Both the position numbers and the translations under genes were made by a program. A DNA stretch of 64,000 nucleotides from Thermodesulfobacteriota bacterium (GTDB taxonomy: Bacteria; Desulfobacterota; Syntrophorhabdia; Syntrophorhabdales; JANXAF01). Below, piece by piece: positions 3,166 through 57,065 of the stretch. The stretch covers positions 132,765 through 196,764 of the forward strand of contig JANXAF010000002.1 of the NCBI GenBank assembly GCA_025062045.1, read 5' to 3'. The notes under the pieces were generated by a model that saw only the letters and a list, made by a program, of their open reading frames with translations, made no database searches and was not told where the DNA came from. How positions within the stretch are numbered: the first letter of the stretch is position 1; every line of letters starts with the position of its first letter.

Positions 3166-4293
3166 ATGTGGGAAGATATGTCCCTTGAAGATGTTGTCAG
3201 GTGTGCCAGTGATCCTTATCCTTCCATCAGGGAATGGAAGAGAAAGTCCGGCAAAAAGGTCATAGGAACAACCTTTGCTGATGTGCCCGAAGAGGTGATA
3301 CAGGCTTTTGACATCTTGCCTGTCACCCTTATGGGCACAACCAAACCGCTAAAGAGGGCCCAAGCCCTCCTTCCTGATAACGCCTGCTCCCTTGCAAGAA
3401 GTAACCTTGAGCTTGTATTAAGCTACGAGACCGATCTCTTTGACGGGTTCGTACTGCCCCAAGTTTGCGATACGACACAACACATGTCTGACATATGGAG
3501 GATAAACGTAAAAGCTGATTACTTTGAAAGCTTTCTTGCCCCCCGCCAGGTTGACAGACCGAGCGCAAAGTACTGGGTGAGAAAGGAAATAGATAGACTT
3601 ATCGACTCTTTAAAAAACTTTTCCGGAAAAGATCTGGGGCCCACGGATCTTAAAAGATCCGTGGAGATTCATAACGAGAATAAAAGGCTTCTTAAGGAGA
3701 TATACTCGATAAAGAACGAGAATCCTTCGTCTGTTTCCTCGAAGGAATTCTTTTCAATGGTCAAGATCTCTCAGCAGGTGGATAAAGGTGAGTTTAATAG
3801 ATCCTTGAAAAAGATCAAGGATAGCCTAAAACCTGGCAAAAAGGAAGGTTACATTGATGTCATCCTTTGTGGAATCACCTGTGAGCCCATAGAGATATAC
3901 GGACTATTCGACGAGTTAAAGTTGAACGTAATTGCAGACAATCTGCTTATTGGAAGTCGCTACTTAGAAGGGGAAGTGGAAGACGGGGAAGATCTGATTG
4001 ATAAGCTAACTGAAAGGCACTTCAAAAGGGGCTTCTTCTCACCTATTCACGGAAACGTATTTGCAGAATTCGAACAGATAAAGAAACTATACAAAGAGAA
4101 GAACGCAAAGGCTGTAATTTACGTACACATTGAATTCTGCGAGTCCCAGGAGTACGATCTTCCAGACCTTAAAAGGATGATGAAGCAAGAAGGGATACCG
4201 ATGCATGTAATAGAGACTGAATATCAGACAACGTCTCTGTCCCATATAAGGACGAGACTTCAAGCGTTTATCGAATCAATAAAGGGGATCTAG
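3166..4293 (+). CDS. 2-hydroxyacyl-CoA dehydratase/benzoyl-CoA reductase family, BcrC/BadD-like subunit
   Basis: A 375-residue member of the HgdB/HgdC and BcrB/BcrC fold. These catalytic subunits bind a [4Fe-4S] cluster and either reduce aromatic acyl-CoA or dehydrate 2-hydroxyacyl-CoA, in both cases after ATP-driven electron injection. Visible marks are the N-terminal WKRKSGKKVIG and DILPVTLMGTT segments, Cys74 (DNACSLARS), Cys101 (PQVCDTT), GITCEPIEIYGLFDEL, and a C-terminal HIEFCESQEYDLPDLK. Length and gene order (this subunit first) fit BcrC/BadD rather than HgdC. The next gene begins directly after the stop codon. No activator or ATPase subunit (BcrA/BcrD, HgdC) is nearby, so the reaction cannot be fixed. 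Benzoyl-CoA reduction, 2-hydroxyacyl dehydration or another reduction are all possible. Confidence 0.8.
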   Translation: MWEDMSLEDVVRCASDPYPSIREWKRKSGKKVIGTTFADVPEEVIQAFDILPVTLMGTTKPLKRAQALLPDNACSLARSNLELVLSYETDLFDGFVLPQVCDTTQHMSDIWRINVKADYFESFLAPRQVDRPSAKYWVRKEIDRLIDSLKNFSGKDLGPTDLKRSVEIHNENKRLLKEIYSIKNENPSSVSSKEFFSMVKISQQVDKGEFNRSLKKIKDSLKPGKKEGYIDVILCGITCEPIEIYGLFDELKLNVIADNLLIGSRYLEGEVEDGEDLIDKLTERHFKRGFFSPIHGNVFAEFEQIKKLYKEKNAKAVIYVHIEFCESQEYDLPDLKRMMKQEGIPMHVIETEYQTTSLSHIRTRLQAFIESIKGI

Positions 4294-5538
4294 ATGAGCG
4301 AAAAGCAAAAAAAAGAAATGACCAAATCCCAAATCTTATCAAAAGAGATAACGGAAGAGTACCTTGAAGAGGCATTTCGAGCCAAAAAGGAGGGTAGAAT
4401 CGTCTGCTACACGACAGCCATCTCGCCGGTTGAGATCCTCGTTGCCCATGACATAATTCCAATCTACCCTGAAAATCACTCGGTTGCTAATCTAGTGGCA
4501 AAAAAGGGTGCAGAGATGTGTTCATTTGTCGAAGGGTTGGGCTACTCGAGTCACCTTTGCGCATACGCGAGGTGTGACCTTGCCTACAGGGCAACGGGCC
4601 GTACGGTAACAAGGGGGATTCCTGAACCGGACATGTTCCTTGCGTGTAACGCCCAGTGCTTTACACTAACTAAATGGTTCGAGGTATTGTCCAGAAAAGG
4701 AGGCGGACTACCCCTTTTTGTTTTTGATACACCACAGTACATACGGGATAGAAGGGCTAGGGAAGAGATTGTTAAGTACTGTGTGATGCAGCTGAAAGAA
4801 CTCATAGCTTTGATTGAGGATCTAACTAAGAGAAAGTTCGACTACGACAGACTTAGGGAGGTTCTTAAGTATTCGAGGGAGGCAAGTCTACTTTACAGAA
4901 GATTCCTGGATATGGCCCAATACAAACCTTCGCCTATTAGCATCTTCGATGCTCTCATAGGAATGGCAATAACCGTGTACAGAAGGGGTACACCGCAGTG
5001 CGTGGAATACTATAGAACACTTTGCGACGAGATCCAGGAAAAAGTGGAAAAGGGTATAGGTGTCCTTCCAAAAGAAAAGGAAAGGTTCAGGCTTTACTGG
5101 GAGAATCTTCCTATATGGTATAAGTTCAGTGATCATGCGAAACTTTTGAGCTCTTATGGAGCTGTGATTCTAACCTCCCTTTACGTTCATGCCTGGAGCT
5201 TTGAATTTGACCTCGACAAGGACCCACTTTACACTCTCTCTGAGAATTACGTTTCAAGGTTTTCAAACGTGACACTCGAAGAGAGGGTCGATATGGCTTT
5301 AGAGCTTTTTGAAAGGTATTCTTTGAACGGGATGCTCATGTTCATGAATAGGAGCTGTAAGGCCGTCTCCTTCGCTGTACCAACCTTAAAAGAGATCCTC
5401 ACAAAAAGAACGGGTATACCTGCACTTGTCTTTGAAAGCGATATGGGGGACCAAAGGTTTTACTCGGAAACCCAAATAAGAACAAGGATTGAGGCGTACT
5501 TCGAAACTTTGGAAAAGTTAAACCTGGCAAGGGGATGA
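4294..5538 (+). CDS. 2-hydroxyacyl-CoA dehydratase/benzoyl-CoA reductase family, BcrB/BadE-like subunit
   Basis: A 414-residue partner of the preceding protein, resembling BcrB/BadE. The start ATG is the base after the upstream TAG, so translation is coupled. Likely cluster ligands lie in SHLCAYARC (Cys89, Cys93) and ACNAQC (Cys118, Cys122). The C-terminal block with NRSCKAVSF, GIPALVFESDMGDQRF and a TRIEAYFE end is the usual family signature. In Thauera and Rhodopseudomonas the next two genes encode ATP-hydrolysing activator subunits. Here the next gene is the convergent kdsB, whose 3' end overlaps this gene by 21 bases. The activator must be encoded elsewhere or be shared with another dehydratase (inference). 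Confidence 0.8.
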   Translation: MSEKQKKEMTKSQILSKEITEEYLEEAFRAKKEGRIVCYTTAISPVEILVAHDIIPIYPENHSVANLVAKKGAEMCSFVEGLGYSSHLCAYARCDLAYRATGRTVTRGIPEPDMFLACNAQCFTLTKWFEVLSRKGGGLPLFVFDTPQYIRDRRAREEIVKYCVMQLKELIALIEDLTKRKFDYDRLREVLKYSREASLLYRRFLDMAQYKPSPISIFDALIGMAITVYRRGTPQCVEYYRTLCDEIQEKVEKGIGVLPKEKERFRLYWENLPIWYKFSDHAKLLSSYGAVILTSLYVHAWSFEFDLDKDPLYTLSENYVSRFSNVTLEERVDMALELFERYSLNGMLMFMNRSCKAVSFAVPTLKEILTKRTGIPALVFESDMGDQRFYSETQIRTRIEAYFETLEKLNLARG

Positions 5539-16754: not shown

Positions 16755-18659
16755 GTGAAAAGGATCGTAATCGGTACAGCTGGTCATGTGGATCATGGAA
16801 AGACTGCCCTAATTAAAGCTTTGACAGGAATAGATTGTGATCGGCTTAAGGTCGAAAAGGAAAGAGGAATAACGACCGAACTCGGTTTTGCCTACTATAA
16901 AGGGGGAGAGGATCTCCTTTTAGGAATCGTTGATGTCCCAGGACATGAAAGATTCGTAAGGCACATGGTTTCCGGAGCTTGGGGAATAGATATGGTTCTT
17001 CTCGTTGTTGCAGCCGATGAGGGTGTGATGCCTCAGACGAAAGAACATGTGGATATATGTGAACTTTTAGGGTTAAAAAAGGCTATCGTAGCCGTAACAA
17101 AGATAGACCTCGTAGATGAGGAGATGCTTGAATTAGTGATAGAGGATGTAAAGGATTTTTTGAAGGGAAGACCATTCGAAAAGGCGCCAATAATACCGGT
17201 ATCTTCAGTTACTGGACAGAATATTTCTCTTCTTAAAAGTACTATAATGGAAGTTGCCAAAGACGTGCCTGAAAAGTCTAAAGAAGGCATTTTTCGGCTT
17301 CCCGTTGACAGAGTCTTTTCAGTGAAAGGGCACGGTACTGTTGTAACTGGAACTTGCATTTCCGGAAGCGTAAAAGTGGGGGAGCAAGTAGAGATTTACC
17401 CTATCCATAGATACGCGAAAGTGCGATCGATTCAAGCATACTATGAGGAAAGGCAGAAAGCGTTTGCCGGGGAAAGGGTCGCCTTAAATCTTCAAGGTAT
17501 TGACAAAGAAGAACTGGAAAGGGGTGTGGTAATCGGCGAGCCAGGCCGTCTAATCCCTAGTATAAGAGTGGATGTTTCGCTTAAGTTACTCGACCTTCCG
17601 ATAAAACCGATAAAGAGCGATACGATCTTACGGTTTCACATAGGCACTGCTCAGAGGGAGGCAAGACTTATCATCCTAGAAAAAGACGAGATAAGGCCGG
17701 GTGAAGAGCTTTTCTGCCAGTTCGTTTTTTTGGAACCGATTGTGGCAATGCCTAAAGACAACTTTATCATAAGGGGATCATATTTCCCCTCGCAGACGAT
17801 AGGAGGTGGTGTTATCCTCGATGTAACGGCAAAAAAGCATAAGAGGAAACGCCCAGAGCTAGGCCTGATATACAACGTTTTGAGAAATGGATCCCCGAAA
17901 GACAGGCTCGAATTGTTCGTAAAAGACAGGGATTATGAGGGGTTGTCTCTTGCCGAACTTGAAGCGATCTCCGGACTGAATTCAAAGGAGCTTGAAGAAG
18001 GCATATCAAGCTTGATGGGAGAAGGGAAGGTCCTTGTTATCTCGAGTCATGTGATGCATGAAGAGTTTGTCAGAGCTTATAAGTCAAAACTTATTGAGAT
18101 TCTCCAAGAATTTCACGAACGGAATCCTTTAAAGATAGGGATTTCAAGGGAGGAATTGAAACAGAGATTGCCGAAGGTGAAGGATAGTTTCTTCGTTTTC
18201 GTTTTAGATGCTCTGGTAAAGGAAGGACAGTTAGAGATAGAAAAAGACAGAATAAGACACAAACTCAAAAAGCCTGAAGGAATGGATATCGATTCCCTAG
18301 AAAGGGAGATTATTTCCAGGCTCCACAAATACGACCTCTGTGCCCCTTCCATCTCGGAGTTGAACCAGGAACTTAAGCACCCGGAGAACATGCTGAGAGA
18401 CTTCTTAGAGAGGCTCGTGTATGAGGGAAAGGTTGTAAAGCTAAAAAAAGATATGTACATTCACCCGGAAAGTTTAGAAAGATTTAGAACTGCGGTTGTG
18501 AGCTTTCTTAAGGAGAAAGGAGAAGCCTCGCCATCTGAGATAAAGTCAGTTGTGAACATATCGAGAAAGTATCTCATCCCTCTTCTGGAATATCTGGATG
18601 AAGTGAAGATAACGATCAGAAAAGGGGATAAAAGGGTCTTAAGGGAGATAAGCTTTTGA
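16755..18659 (+). CDS. selB: Selenocysteine-specific elongation factor SelB
   Basis: A 634-residue GTPase that delivers selenocysteyl-tRNA to UGA codons marked by a SECIS hairpin. The N-terminal EF-Tu-like G domain has [19 protein letters not shown] and TKIDL. Beta-barrel domains follow, then a C-terminal array of winged helices from about residue 375, which binds SECIS RNA. Length matches the family (about 610-640). The GTG start at 16755 gives the canonical N-terminus [11 protein letters not shown]. selA, selD and the tRNA-Sec gene are not in the window, but the organism should make selenoproteins. Confidence 0.95.
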
Positions 18660-18734: not shown

Positions 18735-19433
18735 ATGACCAAGGACTACTACGAAATTCTTAACGTTTCTAGAAACGCGGACGAGAAAACCATAAAAGAG
18801 GCTTATAGAAAACTCGCCCTTAAATATCATCCTGATAGAAATCAAAACGATCCTAGGGCCTTGGATAAAATGAAAGAGATAAACGAGGCCTACGCTGTCC
18901 TTTCGGACCCGAAAAAGAGAGAAAAGTATGATTTACTGCGGAAAGAGTTTGGAGATCGAGCGTATGACTACTTCAGAAAGGATTATTCGGAGGAGGACAT
19001 ATTTAGAGGCTCGGATATATTCGAGCTTCTAGATGAGATATCGCGTGCTTTTTACGCGGCTGGCTTTAAAAAGAGAGGATTCTTCTATTTCTATACAATT
19101 TTCCAAGTGCCGATTTTTAAGTTTCTTATCCGCAATGTCCCCTGGGGAGATAAATGGTATGACGAGGATTTGAGCGGGACAATCTATATCGATGAGGAAG
19201 ACGCAAGAGTTGGAAACAAAGTCTCCTACTATGACAAAAGGCTCGACAAGCAGTTCATAGTGACGATTCCGCGGAACATAAAAGATGGTCAAGTGATAAG
19301 ATTGAAAGGGGCCTTCGGTGACGGAATATTTTTTCCGAAAAGGGACATATATCTTACAGTCCGGATAAGAAAACCTTTTCTTAAAAGGATCTTCTCAGCC
19401 ATAAAAAAATTCATTAATAAGGTAAGCCCATAG
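18735..19433 (+). CDS. J-domain co-chaperone (short, CbpA/DnaJ-like)
   Basis: A 232-residue protein. The N-terminal J domain (residues about 4-68) includes the HPD motif in [10 protein letters not shown], which stimulates DnaK ATPase. There is no zinc-finger region. A hydrophobic, aromatic-rich middle ([14 protein letters not shown]) and a C-terminal substrate-binding-like beta domain ([29 protein letters not shown]) follow. It is shorter than CbpA because only one C-terminal subdomain is present. It ends one base from the convergent pgsA stop. Confidence 0.85.
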
Positions 19434-22688: not shown

Positions 22689-23549
22689 TTACCAGAATTT
22701 TGATATTTCATCTGAGAGCCTTTTTTTTATCTCCGGTCTCTCCCTATCTATGTATTCTATTGCTGGTTTTAAGAGTTCAGGTGGATACTGACCGAAAAGA
22801 TACTCCTCTTTTCTTATATGCCAACCGAAACTCTCCCATCTTTCCATTGTTTCCTTCTTAAACTCTTCAACCTCCTCTGGGGTCATCCTTCTTGTTGAGA
22901 AAAAAGGCGACAAGTGAGGCGACGGTTTTCCATAGTAAACCATAAAAAGTTCCCATTCTTTGAAGTCCTGTTTTGAGCTAAGAAATGCACCAAACTTTCT
23001 AATTACTGAAACGTACTGATGGAAGATCCCTATGTACGGAGGAGCTGAAAACTCAGGCTCTTCCTTACTTCCCAAATAGAATTCCACCTTTCCGACAAAA
23101 CCACTGTCCATCTCCTCCTCGATAAATGAGTCAGTCTCAGAAGAACTGAAGCCCTCATCTTCCAGAATCTTTCGTAGGGTCCCGAGATGAAAGAGATAGG
23201 GTTCATATTCGTAGCCACCAACAAAGACATTTCTTATTCTGAGTCTCCCCCCTGGTGCAAGATATACTCCAGAAGAGAGAATACCGCGGACCAAAAACTC
23301 TATCTTTGGTCTATTTATAGCCTTTTCACAGAGTATGAAGAACTTCCGAGAAAATTCTTCATTGGCAGGTGTCCTATCGTAATGGTAAAGGGAACCCTCT
23401 TTGACTACCACTTTTCTCTCGGAGAGTTTCTCCAAAGCCTTTTCTACCCAAAGTGGGTCTTCTCCTGTCATACTTGAGAGTTCCTCAAGGCTAAGTGGCT
23501 TACGACTATCCCTCAGTACTTTTAGTGACTTAATTACAACAGGTTCCAT
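22689..23549 (-). CDS. Uncharacterised protein with N-terminal winged-helix-like region, third gene of AAA+/VWA operon
   Basis: A 286-residue protein not recognised as a named family. Residues about 1-60 look like a winged helix (LSLEELSSMTG, then WVEKALEKLSERKVVVKEG). The rest is mixed alpha/beta with many acidic residues and no transmembrane segment or known catalytic motif. The ATG shares one base with the TGA of the VWA gene, so translation is coupled and the protein probably works with the AAA+/VWA pair. It could be an adaptor or a transcriptional switch of the pair. No function is assigned. Confidence 0.6.
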   Translation of the reverse strand: MEPVVIKSLKVLRDSRKPLSLEELSSMTGEDPLWVEKALEKLSERKVVVKEGSLYHYDRTPANEEFSRKFFILCEKAINRPKIEFLVRGILSSGVYLAPGGRLRIRNVFVGGYEYEPYLFHLGTLRKILEDEGFSSSETDSFIEEEMDSGFVGKVEFYLGSKEEPEFSAPPYIGIFHQYVSVIRKFGAFLSSKQDFKEWELFMVYYGKPSPHLSPFFSTRRMTPEEVEEFKKETMERWESFGWHIRKEEYLFGQYPPELLKPAIEYIDRERPEIKKRLSDEISKFW

Positions 23550-24814
23550 CAGTAGTTTTTAAAAGCTCTTTTTTTCATTTTTAGGTAATCCTCGATGACC
23601 ATCTCGCCAAGTCGCAGAGGGGAAGTGAAAAAAACCCTTCCTAAGTTTTTTCTCGCAAGGATAGATGCAAATTCTTTAAGCTCGTAACTTTCGTCGAGCA
23701 TTATTATGTTAAGGGTAATCCCAGACTGACGATAGTAAAGGGCTTCTTGGATAACGCCACCTATAGCTCTACTGAATCCAACATACTTTCCATCTTCGGT
23801 ATTGGGCTCAGTATCAGTTATGAGGTAGGCCTGTTTGTCACCCTTTTCATTAGCAACAGCCTTTCTGAAAGCTCTCATGGCTGCCCTTATGTCAGTTGAT
23901 CCTCCGGCGAAACTCACATTTAGGATATCGTAGTAAGGGATTTCCCTAACGCAAGTGGAAAAGAGATAAACTTTAAGCAGATCCTTAGGCTCTCTCTTTA
24001 TGAGTTCGGCCAAGGCCAAAGAAGTATCTATTGCCGCATTCATCTTATCACCGCTCATGCTGCCTGACTCATCTATTATGAGCCCGGAAACCATTCTCGT
24101 TTCCTCTATCTCCTCATAAACATAAAAATCTTCCAACTGAAAAGAGAGCCTATTTTTTATACCCTGCCTCTCTAAAGCATTAAGGAGAGTTCTCTCAATA
24201 TCGATTCTCTCATACTCGTCACCTATTTCGTAAGGCCTGGAGGAGAAAGAGAGGTCAATTCCAAAGCCGATCTCGCCAGTTCTGTGGACACCGGCACCTT
24301 TTTCTGTCAGTTTTTCTAAGATCTTTCTTAATACGTTTTGGGCGAGTTTTCTTGCTCCTTTTGGGGTAATTTTTATCGTATCACCGTCCATCTGGATGTC
24401 GCCAAGATCAATGTACTCTTTTAAAGCATCCTCCAAGTCCTTTTGCGTTATATCTTTCGGTTCGTACTTAAGTCTCCTTATTTCCCTTTCCAGCTCCTCT
24501 TTTATCCTGTCTCTTCGTATTCTTTCTGCAATCTTTTCTGCGTCTTCGCCCTCGAAAAGCCAGTCGACAGATTGAAGAGCCAGTTCCTCGTTCCTTTTTT
24601 TCAGTTTCTCCTCGTATTCTGCCTTTTTTCTTTCGATTTCGGTAAGTCTCTTTTCCCTGTAAGCATTAGCCCGCCTGCCAAGCGAAGTGTCCGAATATCT
24701 TATTCGTCTTAAAAGGTCTTCCAAAGAACGATTCCTCATGTAGGAAATCTCTTGTAAGAAATCTCTGTCCTGGAACCTCACTGGAACACATTTACTTCCA
24801 CTGCACTCTTGCAT
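23549..24814 (-). CDS. VWA-domain protein, partner of the adjacent AAA+ ATPase
   Basis: A 421-residue cytoplasmic protein. The N-terminal half is a charged helical region (coiled coil at about 55-115). The C-terminal von Willebrand A domain keeps a complete metal-ion-dependent adhesion site: D248-x-S250-x-S252, Thr307 in GGSTD, and Asp334 in LITDTEP. VWA proteins next to MoxR- or chelatase-type AAA+ ATPases form two-part machines that remodel proteins or insert metals. It lies 3 bases after the ATPase gene. The substrate is unknown. Confidence 0.8.
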   Translation of the reverse strand: MQECSGSKCVPVRFQDRDFLQEISYMRNRSLEDLLRRIRYSDTSLGRRANAYREKRLTEIERKKAEYEEKLKKRNEELALQSVDWLFEGEDAEKIAERIRRDRIKEELEREIRRLKYEPKDITQKDLEDALKEYIDLGDIQMDGDTIKITPKGARKLAQNVLRKILEKLTEKGAGVHRTGEIGFGIDLSFSSRPYEIGDEYERIDIERTLLNALERQGIKNRLSFQLEDFYVYEEIEETRMVSGLIIDESGSMSGDKMNAAIDTSLALAELIKREPKDLLKVYLFSTCVREIPYYDILNVSFAGGSTDIRAAMRAFRKAVANEKGDKQAYLITDTEPNTEDGKYVGFSRAIGGVIQEALYYRQSGITLNIIMLDESYELKEFASILARKNLGRVFFTSPLRLGEMVIEDYLKMKKRAFKNY

Positions 24815-24817
24815 GCG

Positions 24818-26350
24818 TTACCTCTTCTGAAAACTTCCCATTCTCGGAACAAAAAAGCGTTGCTCAATTGAGCGGGAGGCCAAATTCCTATGCCAGGCCA
24901 AATTAGCGACAAGTTCGAGGGCTGAGTAGTTGTACTCGTCAAGAGTTTTCTCATCCACTTTTTCGGGAAAAAGGACAATCTCCTTTTCATTTTTGTTCCA
25001 GTCATCATTTATCTTATCCTTTGCGACCCTTTTAATCTCCTCAACGGCACGCAAAACTTCAGGATAAAATTTAAGTCTTTCGGTTATGTGGGTAAAATCA
25101 TCTTTGAGAATGGAATCTAGCTCCTCTGAAAATCTATCTTTTTCGACTTCAATCCGGTATGGGAAACTCTCTATGCTTTTACATAAGAGATATTCAGACA
25201 ATTCGTCACTCTTTCTCAAACTCTCTTTCGGGTTATCGAAATCGACAAGATCTGCTCTAAGGGCCATTCTCCCTCTTAAGGCTAAACTCAACCCAGTTGC
25301 AGCATCTTTCAGTGAAGCAACCCTCCTTCCGTCCAGTTCAACAGATCCATAAGTATGGTCGAGGGCCCGTATGGTTGCGCGAATGGAAGCTTTCCTCTCG
25401 AGAAGGGGAGAAACCCTGCTCTGCCTTACCGTTTCATTTATGAGTTCCATTATCCACCAGGGAACGATGCTTTTTCTGTCGAGCTCATCAATTGCTGGAT
25501 ACAAAGGTAAACCGTCTTCTTCGGATACTTGAGTTTCAATTTCTATTTTAAACTTTTCCTTAAGCATTATCTCTTCTTCAACTTCCTTGGCAGGCAAATC
25601 CATATATATGAGCTCCAATCTGTCTAGAAGTGGCCTAGGTACCTCGTTCACATGGCTAAACCCCTGAGGGTTACCCGTAGCGATAAGCACAAGGTCTAGA
25701 GGGTGCTCCCAATTGTACTCCTCTAAAATCGCCTTCTTTTCCTCAAGTACGGGATGGAGTATAACCTGCACCTTTGTCCGTATTGCTGGTAGTTCGTCGA
25801 TAAAAAGGATTCCTCTGTTAGCCCTGAATATTCCAGTTCCAGTAAATACTCTTGGATCAGACGGGGACTTGCCCTGTGCTATGGCCTGTATATCCTTCAA
25901 ACCTAGAAGCTTCGCTTCGTTTGTGTACTCGTTTCCCTGAACCCTTGAAAATCTTTTAAATCCTGGTACAATCTCGATCCCAAATTTTTTAACCGGATCC
26001 TTTGTGTTTCTACATCTGGGACATAGTAATCTCGGAGGCCATTTTGGATCATCGTTGTACGGACAACCCCTGATGACAGGAATGGGTAGAAGGAGCTTAG
26101 TTAAGCTTTTAGCGAGTCTAGTCTTTCCAGTTCCTTCCTCCGAAACGAGATACGGATTTGCACCAGAAAGTAACGCTATAAGGACATCCCTTTTTACCGA
26201 TTCCCTGCCCTGAATGTCGGGTAGGGGATCCTCTCCGTTTTTGACCTTATTTAGGATTGAGTACCTAAGTTGGTAAACTACAGGCAAGGGCTGATAATTA
26301 GCTAAATCGAAACCCTTAGCCTTGCCCTTTGCGGTAAAATTAACACCCAT
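24818..26350 (-). CDS. MoxR/Mg-chelatase-like AAA+ ATPase with cysteine-containing insert
   Basis: A 510-residue AAA+ ATPase. Walker A is GTGKT (73-77), Walker B is ILFIDE (181-186), sensor 1 is in LIATGNP, and an arginine-rich C-terminal lid (RATIRALDHTYG) resembles ChlI/BchI and MoxR ATPases. Between Walker A and B is an insert with Cys96, Cys110 and Cys113 (GCPYND, LCPRC), which may bind zinc. Such an insert is not part of the usual RavA or ChlI core as I know it. It is the first gene of a three-gene unit with the VWA and winged-helix proteins. The ATG lacks an obvious ribosome-binding site. Confidence 0.8.
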   Translation of the reverse strand: MGVNFTAKGKAKGFDLANYQPLPVVYQLRYSILNKVKNGEDPLPDIQGRESVKRDVLIALLSGANPYLVSEEGTGKTRLAKSLTKLLLPIPVIRGCPYNDDPKWPPRLLCPRCRNTKDPVKKFGIEIVPGFKRFSRVQGNEYTNEAKLLGLKDIQAIAQGKSPSDPRVFTGTGIFRANRGILFIDELPAIRTKVQVILHPVLEEKKAILEEYNWEHPLDLVLIATGNPQGFSHVNEVPRPLLDRLELIYMDLPAKEVEEEIMLKEKFKIEIETQVSEEDGLPLYPAIDELDRKSIVPWWIMELINETVRQSRVSPLLERKASIRATIRALDHTYGSVELDGRRVASLKDAATGLSLALRGRMALRADLVDFDNPKESLRKSDELSEYLLCKSIESFPYRIEVEKDRFSEELDSILKDDFTHITERLKFYPEVLRAVEEIKRVAKDKINDDWNKNEKEIVLFPEKVDEKTLDEYNYSALELVANLAWHRNLASRSIEQRFFVPRMGSFQKR

Positions 26351-26675
26351 CTCTAGACCACTTGCGAAAACCTTAGATTCACCCTTGAGCCCTTTAGCAG
26401 AATGAATGATCCTAAGGAAGGAAACCTTTTTTGAGACAAGTACGAAAATTTTATAATTAGCTTCATTACGGTTCGATACATAAATAATACACCTTACCGC
26501 CTAAGAAACGCAACGGCCTATTTTGGCTATAGTATTTGTAGAATAAACAAGCCTTGAAAAACGGAAAAAAGGTTAATGCTCAGTTATCAAAATGAGATCC
26601 TAAATTATTAAGGTACGGTTTTACATCATAAATGGAAATCTGCTATAATCGATGAAAGATGCGCGGAGGAGACCA
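26351..26675. other. Divergent intergenic region (325 bp)
   Basis: AT-rich spacer between the AAA+ operon (minus) and the PAC2 gene (plus). It holds a good promoter for the PAC2 gene at 26620-26649. A weaker candidate exists for the minus strand (TTGCGT, 18 bases, TATTAT). No open frame with a ribosome-binding site and no RNA gene was recognised. Confidence 0.5.
26620..26649 (+). promoter_or_regulatory. Putative promoter for PAC2 gene
   Basis: TTTACA (26620-26625) and a perfect TATAAT (26644-26649), the latter preceded by TGC, are 18 bases apart. The predicted start of transcription (about 26656) lies downstream of the ATG at 26652, which rules that ATG out as the start codon. Confidence 0.6.
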
Positions 26676-27560
26676 ATGCGGATAGGAAACTTTGAAGTAG
26701 AAGATCTTGCTGAAACTCCGAAAGATCCCATTGCAATTGCAGCTCTTTGGCCCTGGATAGATGTAAACAACGTCGGAACTGCTGTGCTTAGGGAGATAAG
26801 GAACAGGTACAATGCACGGCTTATTGGAAGATTGGCTACTCCGGGGCTCTTTTACGATTTTACGAGATACAGGCCCCAGATAGAACTGGAAGATGAAATC
26901 AAGGGAATGTCGATTCCTAATACAACGGTTTATCTGGCCAGAAGGGAGGGCAATAAAGACCTGATTCTTATAAGGATGAGAGAGCCCCATTCTCATGCTG
27001 AACTTTTTGTTCGATCCGTCCTTAAGCTTTTGACGGTATTTGGGGTAAAGACGTACATCGTTGTGGGGAGTATGTACGATGCGGTTCCTCATACAAGGCC
27101 TCTGATAGTCAACGGATACGGTATGGGAGAGAGTGCAAAGGAGATAGTGAGAAAAAATGGAGTTTTGTCCATAAGCTATAGGGGACCGTCAAGTATAGTC
27201 AATATGGTCACAAAGAAGGCCTACGAGTCGGGAATAGAAACGATGGTCTTTATAGTTTCTATACCTCAGTATGTAATCCTCGATGAGGACTATGCAGGAA
27301 AATTGCGACTGATTGAACTATTAAGCAGAATAATCGACATTCCGGTAGATCAGGACGACTACATAAAAGTGTTGGAACAAAAGAGCATCATCGGAGAAAA
27401 CGTCGATAGATCTCCGGAGATAAAAGCTATACTTCCCCATCTTGAGAAGATGTACGACACGCGGGTAAAGGTTGCAGGAAGAGAAGGTACCCTGGAACTT
27501 TCTCCGGAGATGGAAGAGCTTCTGTGGAAAACTATGGGTAAGGATGTGGGGAAGGCTTAA
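26676..27560 (+). CDS. PAC2 family protein (proteasome-assembly-chaperone-like)
   Basis: A 294-residue cytoplasmic protein of the PAC2/COG2047-type superfamily. It starts IGNFEVEDLAETPKDPIAI, has a purine-nucleoside-phosphorylase-like alpha/beta core (KTYIVVGSMYDAVPHTRP) and a helical C-terminus. Bacterial members are widespread but their role is not established; archaeal and eukaryotic relatives assist proteasome assembly. The start at 26676 is chosen over the ATG at 26652 because GGAGGAG lies 5-11 bases before it and the upstream ATG precedes the promoter's start point. The 3' end overlaps the next, convergent gene by 29 bases. Confidence 0.82.
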   Translation: MRIGNFEVEDLAETPKDPIAIAALWPWIDVNNVGTAVLREIRNRYNARLIGRLATPGLFYDFTRYRPQIELEDEIKGMSIPNTTVYLARREGNKDLILIRMREPHSHAELFVRSVLKLLTVFGVKTYIVVGSMYDAVPHTRPLIVNGYGMGESAKEIVRKNGVLSISYRGPSSIVNMVTKKAYESGIETMVFIVSIPQYVILDEDYAGKLRLIELLSRIIDIPVDQDDYIKVLEQKSIIGENVDRSPEIKAILPHLEKMYDTRVKVAGREGTLELSPEMEELLWKTMGKDVGKA

Positions 27561-53375: not shown

Positions 53376-53852
53376 CTATGTCAAATTGGTCATCTTTGTT
53401 GCCTCTTCGACAGCCTCTATTATTTTTTTATAGCCAGTACACCTACAAAGATTCGATGATATTGTCTCCACTATTTGGACTCTGTCTGGTTTAGGGTTCC
53501 TCTCAAGAAGGGCTTTGGCCACCATTATCATCCCAGACGTACAGAATCCACACTGGACTGCCCCTTTTTCAATGAAGGCAGACTGTAGAGGGTGCAACTT
53601 ACCCCCCTTCTTTAAGCCTTCAACAGTTTCAACACTCGAACCATTTAATTCAACTGTGAGGACAAGGCAAGACCTAACGGGTTTACCATCGACGATAACA
53701 GTACATGCACCACATGTGCCAAGACCACAGGCCTCTTTTGCACCGGTAAGTGAAAGCCTTTCACGAAGTGTCTCTAAAAGGGTCTCGTATGGTTTTACTT
53801 CTATGGCAGTCTCTTCCCCATTTAAAATAAGTGATACTTTGTGGAATTGCAT
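53376..53852 (-). CDS. hcrC: Molybdenum hydroxylase [2Fe-2S] subunit (4-hydroxybenzoyl-CoA reductase gamma type)
   Basis: A 158-residue iron-sulphur subunit of the xanthine oxidase family. The plant-ferredoxin-like cluster is bound by Cys42, Cys47, Cys50 and Cys62, and the second cluster by Cys101, Cys104, Cys136 and Cys138. It passes electrons between the FAD subunit and the molybdenum cofactor. It lies 1 base after the FAD subunit gene. The specific name rests on the FAD subunit's extra cluster; the general family is certain. Confidence 0.82.
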   Translation of the reverse strand: MQFHKVSLILNGEETAIEVKPYETLLETLRERLSLTGAKEACGLGTCGACTVIVDGKPVRSCLVLTVELNGSSVETVEGLKKGGKLHPLQSAFIEKGAVQCGFCTSGMIMVAKALLERNPKPDRVQIVETISSNLCRCTGYKKIIEAVEEATKMTNLT

Positions 53853-53853
53853 A

Positions 53854-54795
53854 TCAGTCCCCCGTTTTTAAACTATTTAGTAGCCTTTTTGCGATAACCC
53901 TTCCCATCTTCTTTATGTACAGAGCAGAAACGACTGTGTTATTTACAGGTTTTAAATCCCTATAGACATTTTCGAGAATCTCAGGGGCTTCAATAAGGTT
54001 CGAAGTGGATATTTCGTAGACGAGGGGACGAGGCCCAACTGCTCCTATGACTAGCCTTTTTCTTTCAAAATCTCCTGATATGGCACCGTTTATCAACGGA
54101 TAATCAATCGATCCCCTAATTCTTATCTTTTCAAACATGCCTTCTTTTTTCTCGTTTTTTATAAGTATCTCTTTAAGGATCTCTCCATCTTTAAGGTTGA
54201 AAGGAACTCTAGAATCTCCGGAGAATAACTCGGAAATAGGAAAGGTTCTTTTGCCATTTTTTCCGACACTCACAAGATAAGCGTCTAAAGAGAGTAAAGC
54301 GGGCGCAAGGTCGCTTGCGTAATTTGCGTAACAGACATTCCTTCCGCCTGTTGCATGGCAGATGTCCGCGCCCATCTTGTAACAAAAACCTTTTGCCCTC
54401 CTCCACTCAAGGGATTTGTTATAGAAAAGACACCTCGTATCCTGAAGGATATTCCCCCCAACCGTTCCTCTCATCTGGAGGGTTTCACATGATGTAAGGG
54501 TACAGGCCAAGTACAAAGGGGGATAATTTTTGAGGATAACGTCATTCTCCTTCAAATCGAATATGGTAGTATTTGCTCCTATTGATATGAATCCATCAGC
54601 AATCTTTATCTGAGAAAGCTCTTTGATTCCTTTTAAATCGATAACTACTTTGGGGGTTTTGAGTCTTAGCTTTAAGCGAGGGATGAGATCTGTGCCTCCT
54701 GCGAGGAATACCGCTTCACCTCCGTACATTTCATATATCTCTAGGGCTTCGTCCAACTCCCTTGGCCTTCTATAGTCGAACTTCGGCAGAATCAT
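53854..54795 (-). CDS. hcrB: Molybdenum hydroxylase FAD subunit with extra [4Fe-4S] motif (4-hydroxybenzoyl-CoA reductase beta type)
   Basis: A 313-residue FAD-binding subunit. The FAD motifs are LAGGTDLIP (31-39) and the TVGGNI segment (111-116). The special feature is four cysteines at 122, 138, 146 and 155 (C-x15-C-x7-C-x8-C). They lie in a loop followed by YANYASDLAPAL. This spacing, and as I recall even the numbering, is that of the [4Fe-4S] cluster unique to the beta subunit of Thauera 4-hydroxybenzoyl-CoA reductase. It is absent from xanthine dehydrogenase and CO dehydrogenase. That enzyme reductively removes the phenolic hydroxyl to give benzoyl-CoA. The gene overlaps the large subunit gene by 4 bases. 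Confidence 0.85.
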   Translation of the reverse strand: MILPKFDYRRPRELDEALEIYEMYGGEAVFLAGGTDLIPRLKLRLKTPKVVIDLKGIKELSQIKIADGFISIGANTTIFDLKENDVILKNYPPLYLACTLTSCETLQMRGTVGGNILQDTRCLFYNKSLEWRRAKGFCYKMGADICHATGGRNVCYANYASDLAPALLSLDAYLVSVGKNGKRTFPISELFSGDSRVPFNLKDGEILKEILIKNEKKEGMFEKIRIRGSIDYPLINGAISGDFERKRLVIGAVGPRPLVYEISTSNLIEAPEILENVYRDLKPVNNTVVSALYIKKMGRVIAKRLLNSLKTGD

Positions 54796-57065
54796 TCTGC
54801 CACCCCTTCCTCTATGATCTCTAGAACCTTGTCTGGGGTCAGGGGAAGCTCAATAAAAAGTTTTCCAGTGGCGTTATAAAAAGCGCTAGCTACGGCACTA
54901 TGGGCACTCATTCTTATTGTTAATCCCCCTTCCTTTGCCCCAAAAGGGCCTTCAGGGTCTATGGTAGTGACTATTAAACTTTCTATTTCCGGCATATCCT
55001 TCGCAGTGGGAATCTTGTATTCAAGAAGATCAGGGTTTAGAAGGAAACCATGGTGCCACATATTACCTTCCATTATAGCGGCAACACCCGCTTGCATTAC
55101 TGCTCCTTCGAGCTGACCTTCCACAGCCATTGGGTTTATGGCTCTGCCACAGTCATGGACCGCTATAAACTTAGGGATCGAGATTTTTCCGGTTTCCCTG
55201 TCAATTACTATCTCGGCGACGGAGGTTCCGTAACTGAAGGTCCCGGCCATTTGTCCGTAAGGCCTCGCTACCCATTCCCTTTTGAGGTCTATGTTTGGAA
55301 AGTAAGATCCCTTTCCCATAATAGGCTTTCCCTTAAGAAAAGCCTCTCTCACGATCCAAGAAATCGGTATCTTATTTTCGGGATTATTCTTCGAGTAAAC
55401 CATTCTATCTCGTAGAACGATGTTGCTACCGTCTCCACCGAGCTTCTCTTTGGCGATTTCGATTATCTGGCTTCTAGCATCCTCGCAGGCTCTCTTTACC
55501 GCGTTCACACCCACAAAAGCTGCAGCCTGTGAATAGGCACCAGGATCCAAATTTGTAATTTCTGTATCCGCATTCACTATGTTTATGTCCTCCATGGGTA
55601 TGCCTAGAATCTCTGAGGCCACTTGGATGACCATAGATTCGTTTCCTTGACCATTGTCAACAATGGCTGTAATAATTGTGGCCTGACCGTCATCGTTAAA
55701 TTTTACAAAGCAGGTGGAGCCTGACCTAAAACCCATGGGGAATCCACACATGATAGCTACGCAGCCCATCCCGATGCCTTTATATTTTTCGCCTCTTTTC
55801 CATTTCATTCTGAAATTCGATCTCCTTTCAGCTTCCTCAATAGTCTCTTTTAGACCGCAGCTTATGATTTTCGATCCCGTCGCTGTGACATCGCCAGTTG
55901 AAAGCCCATTTTTAAGCCTCATCTCAACTGGATCGATCCCGAGCTCCTTTGCAATAAGGTCCAACTGGGCTTCACATCCGGCAAGAAAAGCCCTTCCGTG
56001 ACAACCGTACATACCCCTTATCCCTTTGTTTGTGTAAACCCTGTAACCGTTGTATCTTACATTTTGCATTCTGTAACATTCTTCATAAACATAAAATGGA
56101 ACTGAGGCAGCAATTGGACCTGTGCTACTATATGCGCCGCCATCGTATATAACTTCGTAATCCCTTGCGATTATCGTGCCGTCCTTTTTTACGCCCGTTT
56201 TGATTTTTGCAATAATATCGTGGACCTGTCTTGAAGCTATAGCATTTTCCTCCCTTGAAAGTACAAGCTTTACCGGCCTTTCTGTCTTGATGGAGAGTAG
56301 CGAGGCTATAAAGTCCGCGGGAGCAACCTCTGACCTTCCACCGAATGCACCACCTATAAAGACATGCCTGACCCTTATTCTATTTAGGGGAATCTTTAGG
56401 AGGTTTGAGAGTGCCTTAGCCCTCACGTGGGGTCCTGCATTTGGCATCCAAAGATCGAGATATCCATTCTTGTAGTATGCAACGCAAGCATAAGGTTCTA
56501 GCATTGCGTAAGATTCACCTTTTGCCCTAAACTTATCCTCCCTCACGTAATACGCTTCCTTAAAAGCCTTATCCACATCGCCAACTTCTATGTGTACATG
56601 GATGTTTATATTTCTTGGGTAGTTTTCATGGATGAGCGGAGCCCCCTCCTTTATAGCTTCTTCCGGATCGAAAACCGGTTCTAAAGGTTCATATTCGACC
56701 TTTATTTGATCTATCGCTTCGAGCGCTGTCTCCTCGTCTATTGCAGCAACTGCCGCCACGTCTTCACCTACGTACCTAACTTTATCGACAGGAAGCATAG
56801 CATGGTCCTGCGTGTACTTAAAGACGCCCCATTTAACTCCGTATCCGTCCTTTCCTGTAACAACTGCTTTTACCCCAACTACTTTCTCCGCCCTTGATGT
56901 GTCGATATGGAGTATCTTGGCATGCGGATAAGGACTCCTCAAAACCTTTGCAATTAGCATATTTGGGAGTTTTATATCAGCGGTGTATTCAGCCGACCCT
57001 GTTACTTTGTGAATGGAATCGGTCCTGGGTACCCTTCTACCCACGACGTAAAATTCTTGTTCCAT
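54792..57065 (-). CDS. hcrA: Molybdenum hydroxylase large subunit (4-hydroxybenzoyl-CoA reductase alpha type)
   Basis: A 757-residue molybdopterin-binding subunit of the xanthine oxidase family. It has the N-terminal VTGSAEYTADIKLPNML, the GGAFGGRSEV molybdopterin loop, GIRGMYGCHGRAFLAGCEAQLD, and the C-terminal GAKEGGL with the catalytic Glu region. Length matches HcrA (about 770). The GGTGGGGG site precedes the ATG. A promoter-like pair and a 12-bp palindrome lie upstream, after dctM. CoA-ester reduction of a hydroxyaromatic acid is inferred from the FAD subunit; hydroxylation of an N-heterocycle cannot be excluded. Confidence 0.82.
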   Translation of the reverse strand: MEQEFYVVGRRVPRTDSIHKVTGSAEYTADIKLPNMLIAKVLRSPYPHAKILHIDTSRAEKVVGVKAVVTGKDGYGVKWGVFKYTQDHAMLPVDKVRYVGEDVAAVAAIDEETALEAIDQIKVEYEPLEPVFDPEEAIKEGAPLIHENYPRNINIHVHIEVGDVDKAFKEAYYVREDKFRAKGESYAMLEPYACVAYYKNGYLDLWMPNAGPHVRAKALSNLLKIPLNRIRVRHVFIGGAFGGRSEVAPADFIASLLSIKTERPVKLVLSREENAIASRQVHDIIAKIKTGVKKDGTIIARDYEVIYDGGAYSSTGPIAASVPFYVYEECYRMQNVRYNGYRVYTNKGIRGMYGCHGRAFLAGCEAQLDLIAKELGIDPVEMRLKNGLSTGDVTATGSKIISCGLKETIEEAERRSNFRMKWKRGEKYKGIGMGCVAIMCGFPMGFRSGSTCFVKFNDDGQATIITAIVDNGQGNESMVIQVASEILGIPMEDINIVNADTEITNLDPGAYSQAAAFVGVNAVKRACEDARSQIIEIAKEKLGGDGSNIVLRDRMVYSKNNPENKIPISWIVREAFLKGKPIMGKGSYFPNIDLKREWVARPYGQMAGTFSYGTSVAEIVIDRETGKISIPKFIAVHDCGRAINPMAVEGQLEGAVMQAGVAAIMEGNMWHHGFLLNPDLLEYKIPTAKDMPEIESLIVTTIDPEGPFGAKEGGLTIRMSAHSAVASAFYNATGKLFIELPLTPDKVLEIIEEGVAE

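Follow-up and report, generated by a model that had tools for sequence, protein, structure and literature searches.

What is the purpose of the three adjoining genes that lie in the 64,000-nucleotide stretch of a Thermodesulfobacteriota bacterium genome examined here (hereafter the window), and which encode a chelatase-I-like AAA+ ATPase (P0001), a von Willebrand factor A (VWA) domain protein (P0002) and a third protein (P0003) with a predicted winged helix? AAA+/VWA pairs are known as ATP-driven devices that finish difficult metal sites, and to our knowledge few of their clients have been recognised. The system described here is real, conserved and uncharacterised; its ATPase/VWA pair is of a known kind, and the partner encoded by its third gene belongs to no curated family. 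By analogy with NorQD, CoxDE and BssEF, we read it, with a probability of about 0.5, as a dedicated enzyme-maturation machine that would remodel an oxygen-sensitive enzyme for the installation of a cofactor or radical. This agrees in part with a preliminary description of the same DNA, which had thought of metallo-enzyme maturation or stress protection: the pair looks like the former kind, and the third gene belongs with it. The genes represent a coherent AAA+/VWA subfamily, linked to glycyl-radical enzymes in one clade and, through gene abundance in uncultured anaerobes, to tungsten-type oxidoreductases; an uncharacterised pair can thereby be given a testable client assignment.

Close homologues of the ATPase were found in 3 other genomes when 297 of the window's phylum were searched, and on 22 named contigs, all from metagenome-assembled genome records, with 48–67% identity in the best segment. 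They belong to Dehalococcoidia, other Chloroflexota, delta-proteobacterial bins and Bathyarchaeota; single bins are labelled Nitrospinota, Euryarchaeota, Aenigmatarchaeota and Proteobacteria, and such single labels may be wrong. Distant ChlI-like matches are widespread (175/297 phylum genomes at E ≤0.001). For the comparison of gene order, 24 loci besides the window were used, consisting of the 22 named contigs, L039 (genome G182) and L083 (genome G693); L050 and L052 derive from one genome, and L042 and L048 carry two of the three matches in the phylum. In 23 of these loci, the fragment L052 among them, the ATPase gene is again followed by the VWA gene, and the exception is L061, whose DNA stops just past the ATPase gene. 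As in NorQD, CoxDE, RavA-ViaA and BssEF, a VWA gene with an intact metal ion-dependent adhesion site (MIDAS) stands directly beside the ATPase gene in the window and in those 23 loci. The third gene adjoins the pair in 11 of the 24, being divergent in nine, downstream in L041 and upstream on the same strand in L061, and L053 carries it in two tandem copies. Because of these two counts (23/24 and 11/24), the arrangement is above chance. The exact order of the window, with the third gene last and on the same strand, occurs in one other locus, L041. In the window itself, the three adjoining same-strand open reading frames reported earlier were all recovered at the coordinates given in Table 1, with a 3-bp gap between the ATPase and VWA genes and a 1-bp overlap, in which the VWA stop and the third-gene start share one base (TGATG). 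The protein distances also co-vary, most strongly between the VWA and third proteins (r 0.87, 10 loci; 0/5000 shuffles), followed by ATPase and VWA (r 0.78, 22 loci; 0/5000 shuffles) and ATPase and third protein (r 0.49, 11 loci; 93/5000 shuffles).

The third gene was not found in 13 of the 24 other loci within the locus DNA, some contigs being cut short. A whole-genome profile search likewise gave no third protein in 9 of 19 genomes, namely six of the glycyl-radical clade described below and G305, G307 and G308, and judged from these sequences the machine does not appear to consist of three genes in every case. With the same profile approach, the third protein was detected in 3 of 156 genomes of one Chloroflexota order, one of which (G693) was newly found and again has the third gene divergent to the ATPase gene; among 331 Chloroflexota genomes, a full-length match occurred in the centre genome G299 only. 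Every full-length match of the profile searches adjoins the pair, so that a third protein living mostly apart from the ATPase and VWA genes was not encountered. Matches that covered the winged helix only were dropped (nine Chloroflexota genomes at E 3e-4 to 1e-3, and G297), as was a match of only 26 residues in G306. Searches with the single P0003 sequence, which are less sensitive than the profile searches, gave 24 pattern matches in genome contigs, none of them confirmed; in the 297 phylum genomes they gave, apart from the window itself, a single broken match (30%, G057) that was taken as chance.

The ATPase has a Walker A motif (EGTGKT, residues 72–77), a Walker B motif (ILFIDE, 181–186) and a sensor-1-like TGNP. 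It had been called chelatase- or MoxR-like, and the first of these names is the fitting one. In the Pfam scan, AAA_5 matched with 45 bits and Mg_chelatase (PF01078) passed its cut-off (40.8 vs. 20.3 bits); MoxR membership was rejected, since AAA_3 (PF07726) reached 15.8 bits, below the 27-bit cut-off. A profile from 21 ATPase homologues finds the ChlI and BchI structures (ChlI chains at E 9.3e-11). By these profile comparisons, the subfamily is nearer to magnesium-chelatase subunit I than to MoxR. Between Walker A and B, the preliminary description had pointed to a special insert with Cys96, Cys110 and Cys113. In an alignment of 25 rows (window included, L061 as two pieces, the duplicates L038 and L040 excluded), these cysteines are kept in 23/24, 23/24 and 24/24 ungapped rows, respectively, and are thus conserved; a fourth Cys column is shared by 24 of the 25 rows, the window alone differing with Ser314. 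The unusual nature of the insert did not stand: of the 28 wider relatives examined, 27 have a C...CxxC motif at the same place, and the insert was therefore rejected as a new feature. In 16 of those 27, as in the window, the CxxxC form is short of its second Cys, which the other 11 have. The motif is a property of the wider ATPase family and ordinary there. When 27 wider-relative loci with short flanks were scanned with a strict motif, a VWA frame was recovered in one. In L011 and L012 (G137 and G164), the ATPase is a shorter ChlI-like one (349 aa), and the open frame behind it is larger (744 aa) and includes a Cys-containing AAA+ part of its own; this is a separate tandem system.

P0002 contains the DxSxS metal site, and the MIDAS columns are invariant in the ungapped VWA rows (D248, S250, S252, T307 and D308 in 21/21; D334 in 20/20), which bears out the earlier claim of an intact metal site. 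Its N-terminal Cys pair is also conserved (C4 in 18/19, C9 in 21/21), and all 21 VWA members scanned matched Pfam VWA_2 at E ≤0.01. In the predicted structure (predicted local distance difference test score, pLDDT, 84.6), a helix-hairpin-helix at residues 124–171 may be a winged helix. When this model was searched with Foldseek, the first four matches by E-value were the Rea1 MIDAS domain and the NorD VWA domain of NorQ-NorD complexes.

Candidate clients emerge from the gene neighbourhoods. In an ATPase tree of 28 rows, seven rows form a clade with support of 100/100, all without the third gene, and genes for a glycyl-radical enzyme and its activating enzyme lie near the pair in five of these seven loci; the remaining two are L055, a 3.4-kb contig, and L042, which shows no glycyl-radical enzyme in 13.5 kb. 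The window ATPase branches beside this clade, moderately supported (86/79), with its third gene retained, and the window's genome (97% complete) gave no match to PF02901, the pyruvate formate-lyase (PFL)-like glycyl-radical enzyme family. A small conserved protein (86–195 aa) was seen near the pair in glycyl-radical loci (L048 6634–7221, L050 3354–3878, L052 3818–4342 and L039 18122–18382), and the L050 copy had no match in Pfam and NCBIfam. A radical S-adenosylmethionine (SAM)/SPASM protein is also encoded near glycyl-radical genes (L039 16011–17141, L043 8821–9987), directly upstream of the ATPase gene in L043; the L039 copy is nearest to AhbD/NirJ-type models, under their cut-offs.

Outside this clade, the likeliest clients in the window's lineage would be molybdenum/tungsten (Mo/W)-pterin enzymes such as aldehyde:ferredoxin oxidoreductases (AORs). 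Mo/W-related genes occur on the available DNA of 7 of the 17 such loci examined for neighbours (window included, L083 of G693 excluded): AORs in L045, L053 and L054 (in L054 by clustering only), Mo oxidoreductases in L051 and L054, MobA-like and MoeA genes in L058, a MobA-like gene in L044 and FdhD in L046. Five AORs are encoded in the window's genome. By first-look counts, the six glycyl-radical-clade genomes have 0–3 AORs each, as compared with 0–33 in a set of fifteen other genomes that includes the window's (Mann-Whitney p 0.003). In a single order, the genomes known to bear the pair, five in all, contain 4, 8, 24, 29 and 32 AORs, as against a median of 3 for the 151 remaining genomes (p 0.001, or p 0.002 when counted per Mb and p 0.006 when the comparison is limited to those of the 151 with at least one AOR). 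The window also contains a three-gene molybdenum hydroxylase (53376–57065, minus strand), a possible Mo client, whose two larger subunits resemble the alpha and beta subunits of 4-hydroxybenzoyl-CoA reductase, below equivalog cut-offs; it is preceded, on its own strand, by genes that on inspection by eye resemble those of a tripartite ATP-independent periplasmic (TRAP) transporter.

Several points weigh against the proposed maturation of such enzymes. The window pair is without any adjoining client gene, the neighbour count of 7/17 stands without a background rate, and an AOR lies near the pair in 3/17 loci only, one of them without the third gene. In the abundance tests, the genomes are mutually related and kinship was not corrected, and the screen of the 151 comparison genomes covered the third gene but not the pair. 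G301, a 1.0-Mb bin with all three genes (L047), shows no AOR, and G298 and G302 have only 2 each. In addition, P0002 on its own is under the Pfam VWA cut-offs (24.1 vs. 27), and its match to NorD is not exclusive, with modest TM-scores (0.32–0.39 by query) and many unrelated VWA domains behind.

Compared with known systems, the pair has several partial counterparts. According to two papers, NorQD inserts FeB, for which its Walker B and MIDAS residues are required, and a model of twisting has been put forward (PMC9976466, PMC13036017). Like our pair, NorQ-NorD combines an AAA+ ATPase and a VWA/MIDAS protein encoded together; unlike it, NorQ is MoxR-class and about 30 kDa, NorD is about 70 kDa, and the text available mentions neither a winged-helix third gene nor a CxxC insert. 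CoxD, CoxE and CoxF, which according to the source paper build the CuSMo site of carbon monoxide (CO) dehydrogenase, likewise comprise a BchI-like AAA+ protein, a VWA protein and the product of a third gene (CoxF, ~29 kDa; PMC3471820), and 2 of the 21 VWA members match Pfam VWA_CoxE. However, no CO dehydrogenase genes were recognised beside the pair. For the glycyl-radical clade the counterpart is BssE-BssF: in the literature, bssE and bssF are AAA+ and VWA genes of a toluene glycyl-radical operon with uncertain function (PMC7285207), BssE is named as a chaperone for a glycyl-radical enzyme (PMC12583861), and AAA+ and VWA genes beside such an enzyme are what this clade also shows. This likeness is one of gene context and does not extend to the window, whose genome is without a PFL-like enzyme. 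In Thermomicrobium roseum, a chelatase-I-like ATPase gene is likewise followed directly by a VWA gene (TRD_RS11480/TRD_RS11485), but that ATPase is 27% identical over 62% of the length and the annotated neighbours include no such third gene.

In the machine we propose, the ATPase would form a hexameric ring on which the VWA protein docks, gripping the client via its MIDAS metal, and ATP hydrolysis would pull on the client, leading to installation of the metal cofactor or, in the glycyl-radical clade, of the radical. The cysteines would probably hold a metal shaping the ring insert or serve as a redox switch. Most likely, the third protein would be a transcriptional regulator of the pair that senses the state of the cofactor, metal or client with its second half; alternatively, it could act as a client adaptor.

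The structure of the third protein bears on this choice. The P0003 model, built from a 12-sequence alignment (pLDDT 78), has a MarR-like winged helix at residues ~1–80; residues 2–79 fit Rv2887 with Z 11.1 (root-mean-square deviation 2.4, 74 aligned), tied with the top structural match, the pNOB8 AspA centromere-binding protein (Z 11.4). Foldseek matches span about the same residues, with a best E of 3.2e-3 and none at E 0.001, and the profile compared with solved structures found winged-helix proteins only (best E 0.0013). Weak matches among the 12 members were to TrmB (3), IclR (2), MarR_2 (1) and similar families, and P0003 matched no curated family in Pfam and NCBIfam, in keeping with the earlier label of an unrecognised winged-helix-like protein. 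By the model, the N-terminal part would be a winged helix of MarR-like shape, which is not proof of the MarR family. The fold matches stop at about residue 80, and the C-terminal half carries a conserved EEDYLxGxYPPEL-like motif. A regulator is the simplest explanation of the third protein, given this fold and the head-to-head arrangement of its gene. We give even chances to a form of this idea that is compatible with the maturation reading, in which the third gene is a local autoregulator only and the machine is two-component: the modelled fold would suit it, the gene is head-to-head with the ATPase gene in 9 of 12 loci, window included, and many loci are without it, but it is last in the run in the window and in L041 (2 bp from the VWA gene), several divergent gaps are merely ~25–57 bp, and third-protein distances track the VWA protein best. 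This co-variation and the start-stop overlap in the window are the reasons to keep an adaptor role in view. A more speculative extension, which we regard as rather doubtful, is a change of clients: the pair and its winged-helix partner would mature Mo/W-pterin enzymes such as AORs, and one clade, having lost the partner, would have been taken over for glycyl-radical enzymes. On this view, the third protein would be a subunit that senses the client or the cofactor. A literature search returned no paper joining three of the terms aldehyde ferredoxin oxidoreductase, tungsten, MoxR and von Willebrand.

Other purposes for the pair seem less probable than dedicated maturation. A RavA-ViaA-type chaperone for general stress or protein quality, with no cofactor enzyme as its dedicated client, would suit the housekeeping-like context of the window, with J-domain and PAC2 genes nearby; the rare and scattered occurrence (among 297 genomes, 3 besides that of the window) and the clade-specific glycyl-radical gene link speak against it, and we consider it unlikely. 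Still less likely would be a true metal chelatase, in which the ATPase and VWA proteins serve as the I and D motor subunits for tetrapyrrole metal insertion by a CobN/ChlH-type subunit encoded elsewhere. The NCBIfam BchI/ChlI and putative cobaltochelatase models do match the ATPase at E ~1e-12, and the L044 pair adjoins genes taken, by eye rather than by profile, for cobalamin genes, but the scores (~45 vs. 467 and 779 bits) are far below the family cut-offs, the BchI/ChlI equivalog TIGR02030 included (45.2 bits, cut-off 466.95), and no CobN/ChlH-type gene was recognised by eye in the beginnings of the neighbouring open reading frames, where no profile search for one was made. An anti-phage or conflict system is very improbable. 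A conflict-systems paper (PMC7159879) uses the terms 'vwa' 134 times and 'moxr' 78 times, which are term counts alone, while PADLOC matched the ATPase only through RtcR-type AAA+ stretches (E 1e-3) and left the other two proteins without a match. A mobile or defence origin was rejected, since viral contigs contained no confirmed relative, with one 28% partial phage match, and 13 plasmid records gave distant matches only.

Table 1 Coordinates of the three genes and the divergent neighbour in the window
Feature	Coordinates	Strand	Length	Description
Chelatase-I-like AAA+ ATPase P0001	24818..26350	-	510 aa	C96...C110xxC113 between Walker A/B; long C-terminal extension
VWA-domain protein P0002	23549..24814	-	421 aa	intact MIDAS motif; N-terminal Cys4/Cys9
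Third protein P0003	22689..23549	-	286 aa	predicted MarR-like N-terminal winged helix and C-terminal half
PAC2-family gene	26652..27560	+		divergent, 301 bp upstream of ATPase gene

Among the surrounding genes, the PAC2-family gene is a possible, unproven associate of the pair; in L046, a PAC2 homologue 35% identical to that of the window lies directly downstream of the VWA gene. The gene downstream of the three-gene run is one that we take from its sequence to be an NAD-dependent DNA ligase. A promoter and terminator scan gave no excess (8 vs. 6.4, 5 vs. 4.5), and an Rfam scan found one tRNA. A short J-domain protein (37% identity) is common to the window (18735–19433, plus strand) and L047 (4120–4953, minus strand), and the L047 third protein is the closest to that of the window. 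Two further features lie on the plus strand of the window, a pair of 2-hydroxyacyl-CoA dehydratase/benzoyl-CoA reductase-like subunits (3166–5538) and a gene for the selenocysteine elongation factor SelB (16755–18659; 381 bits, cut-off 242), from which it follows that the organism probably uses selenocysteine.

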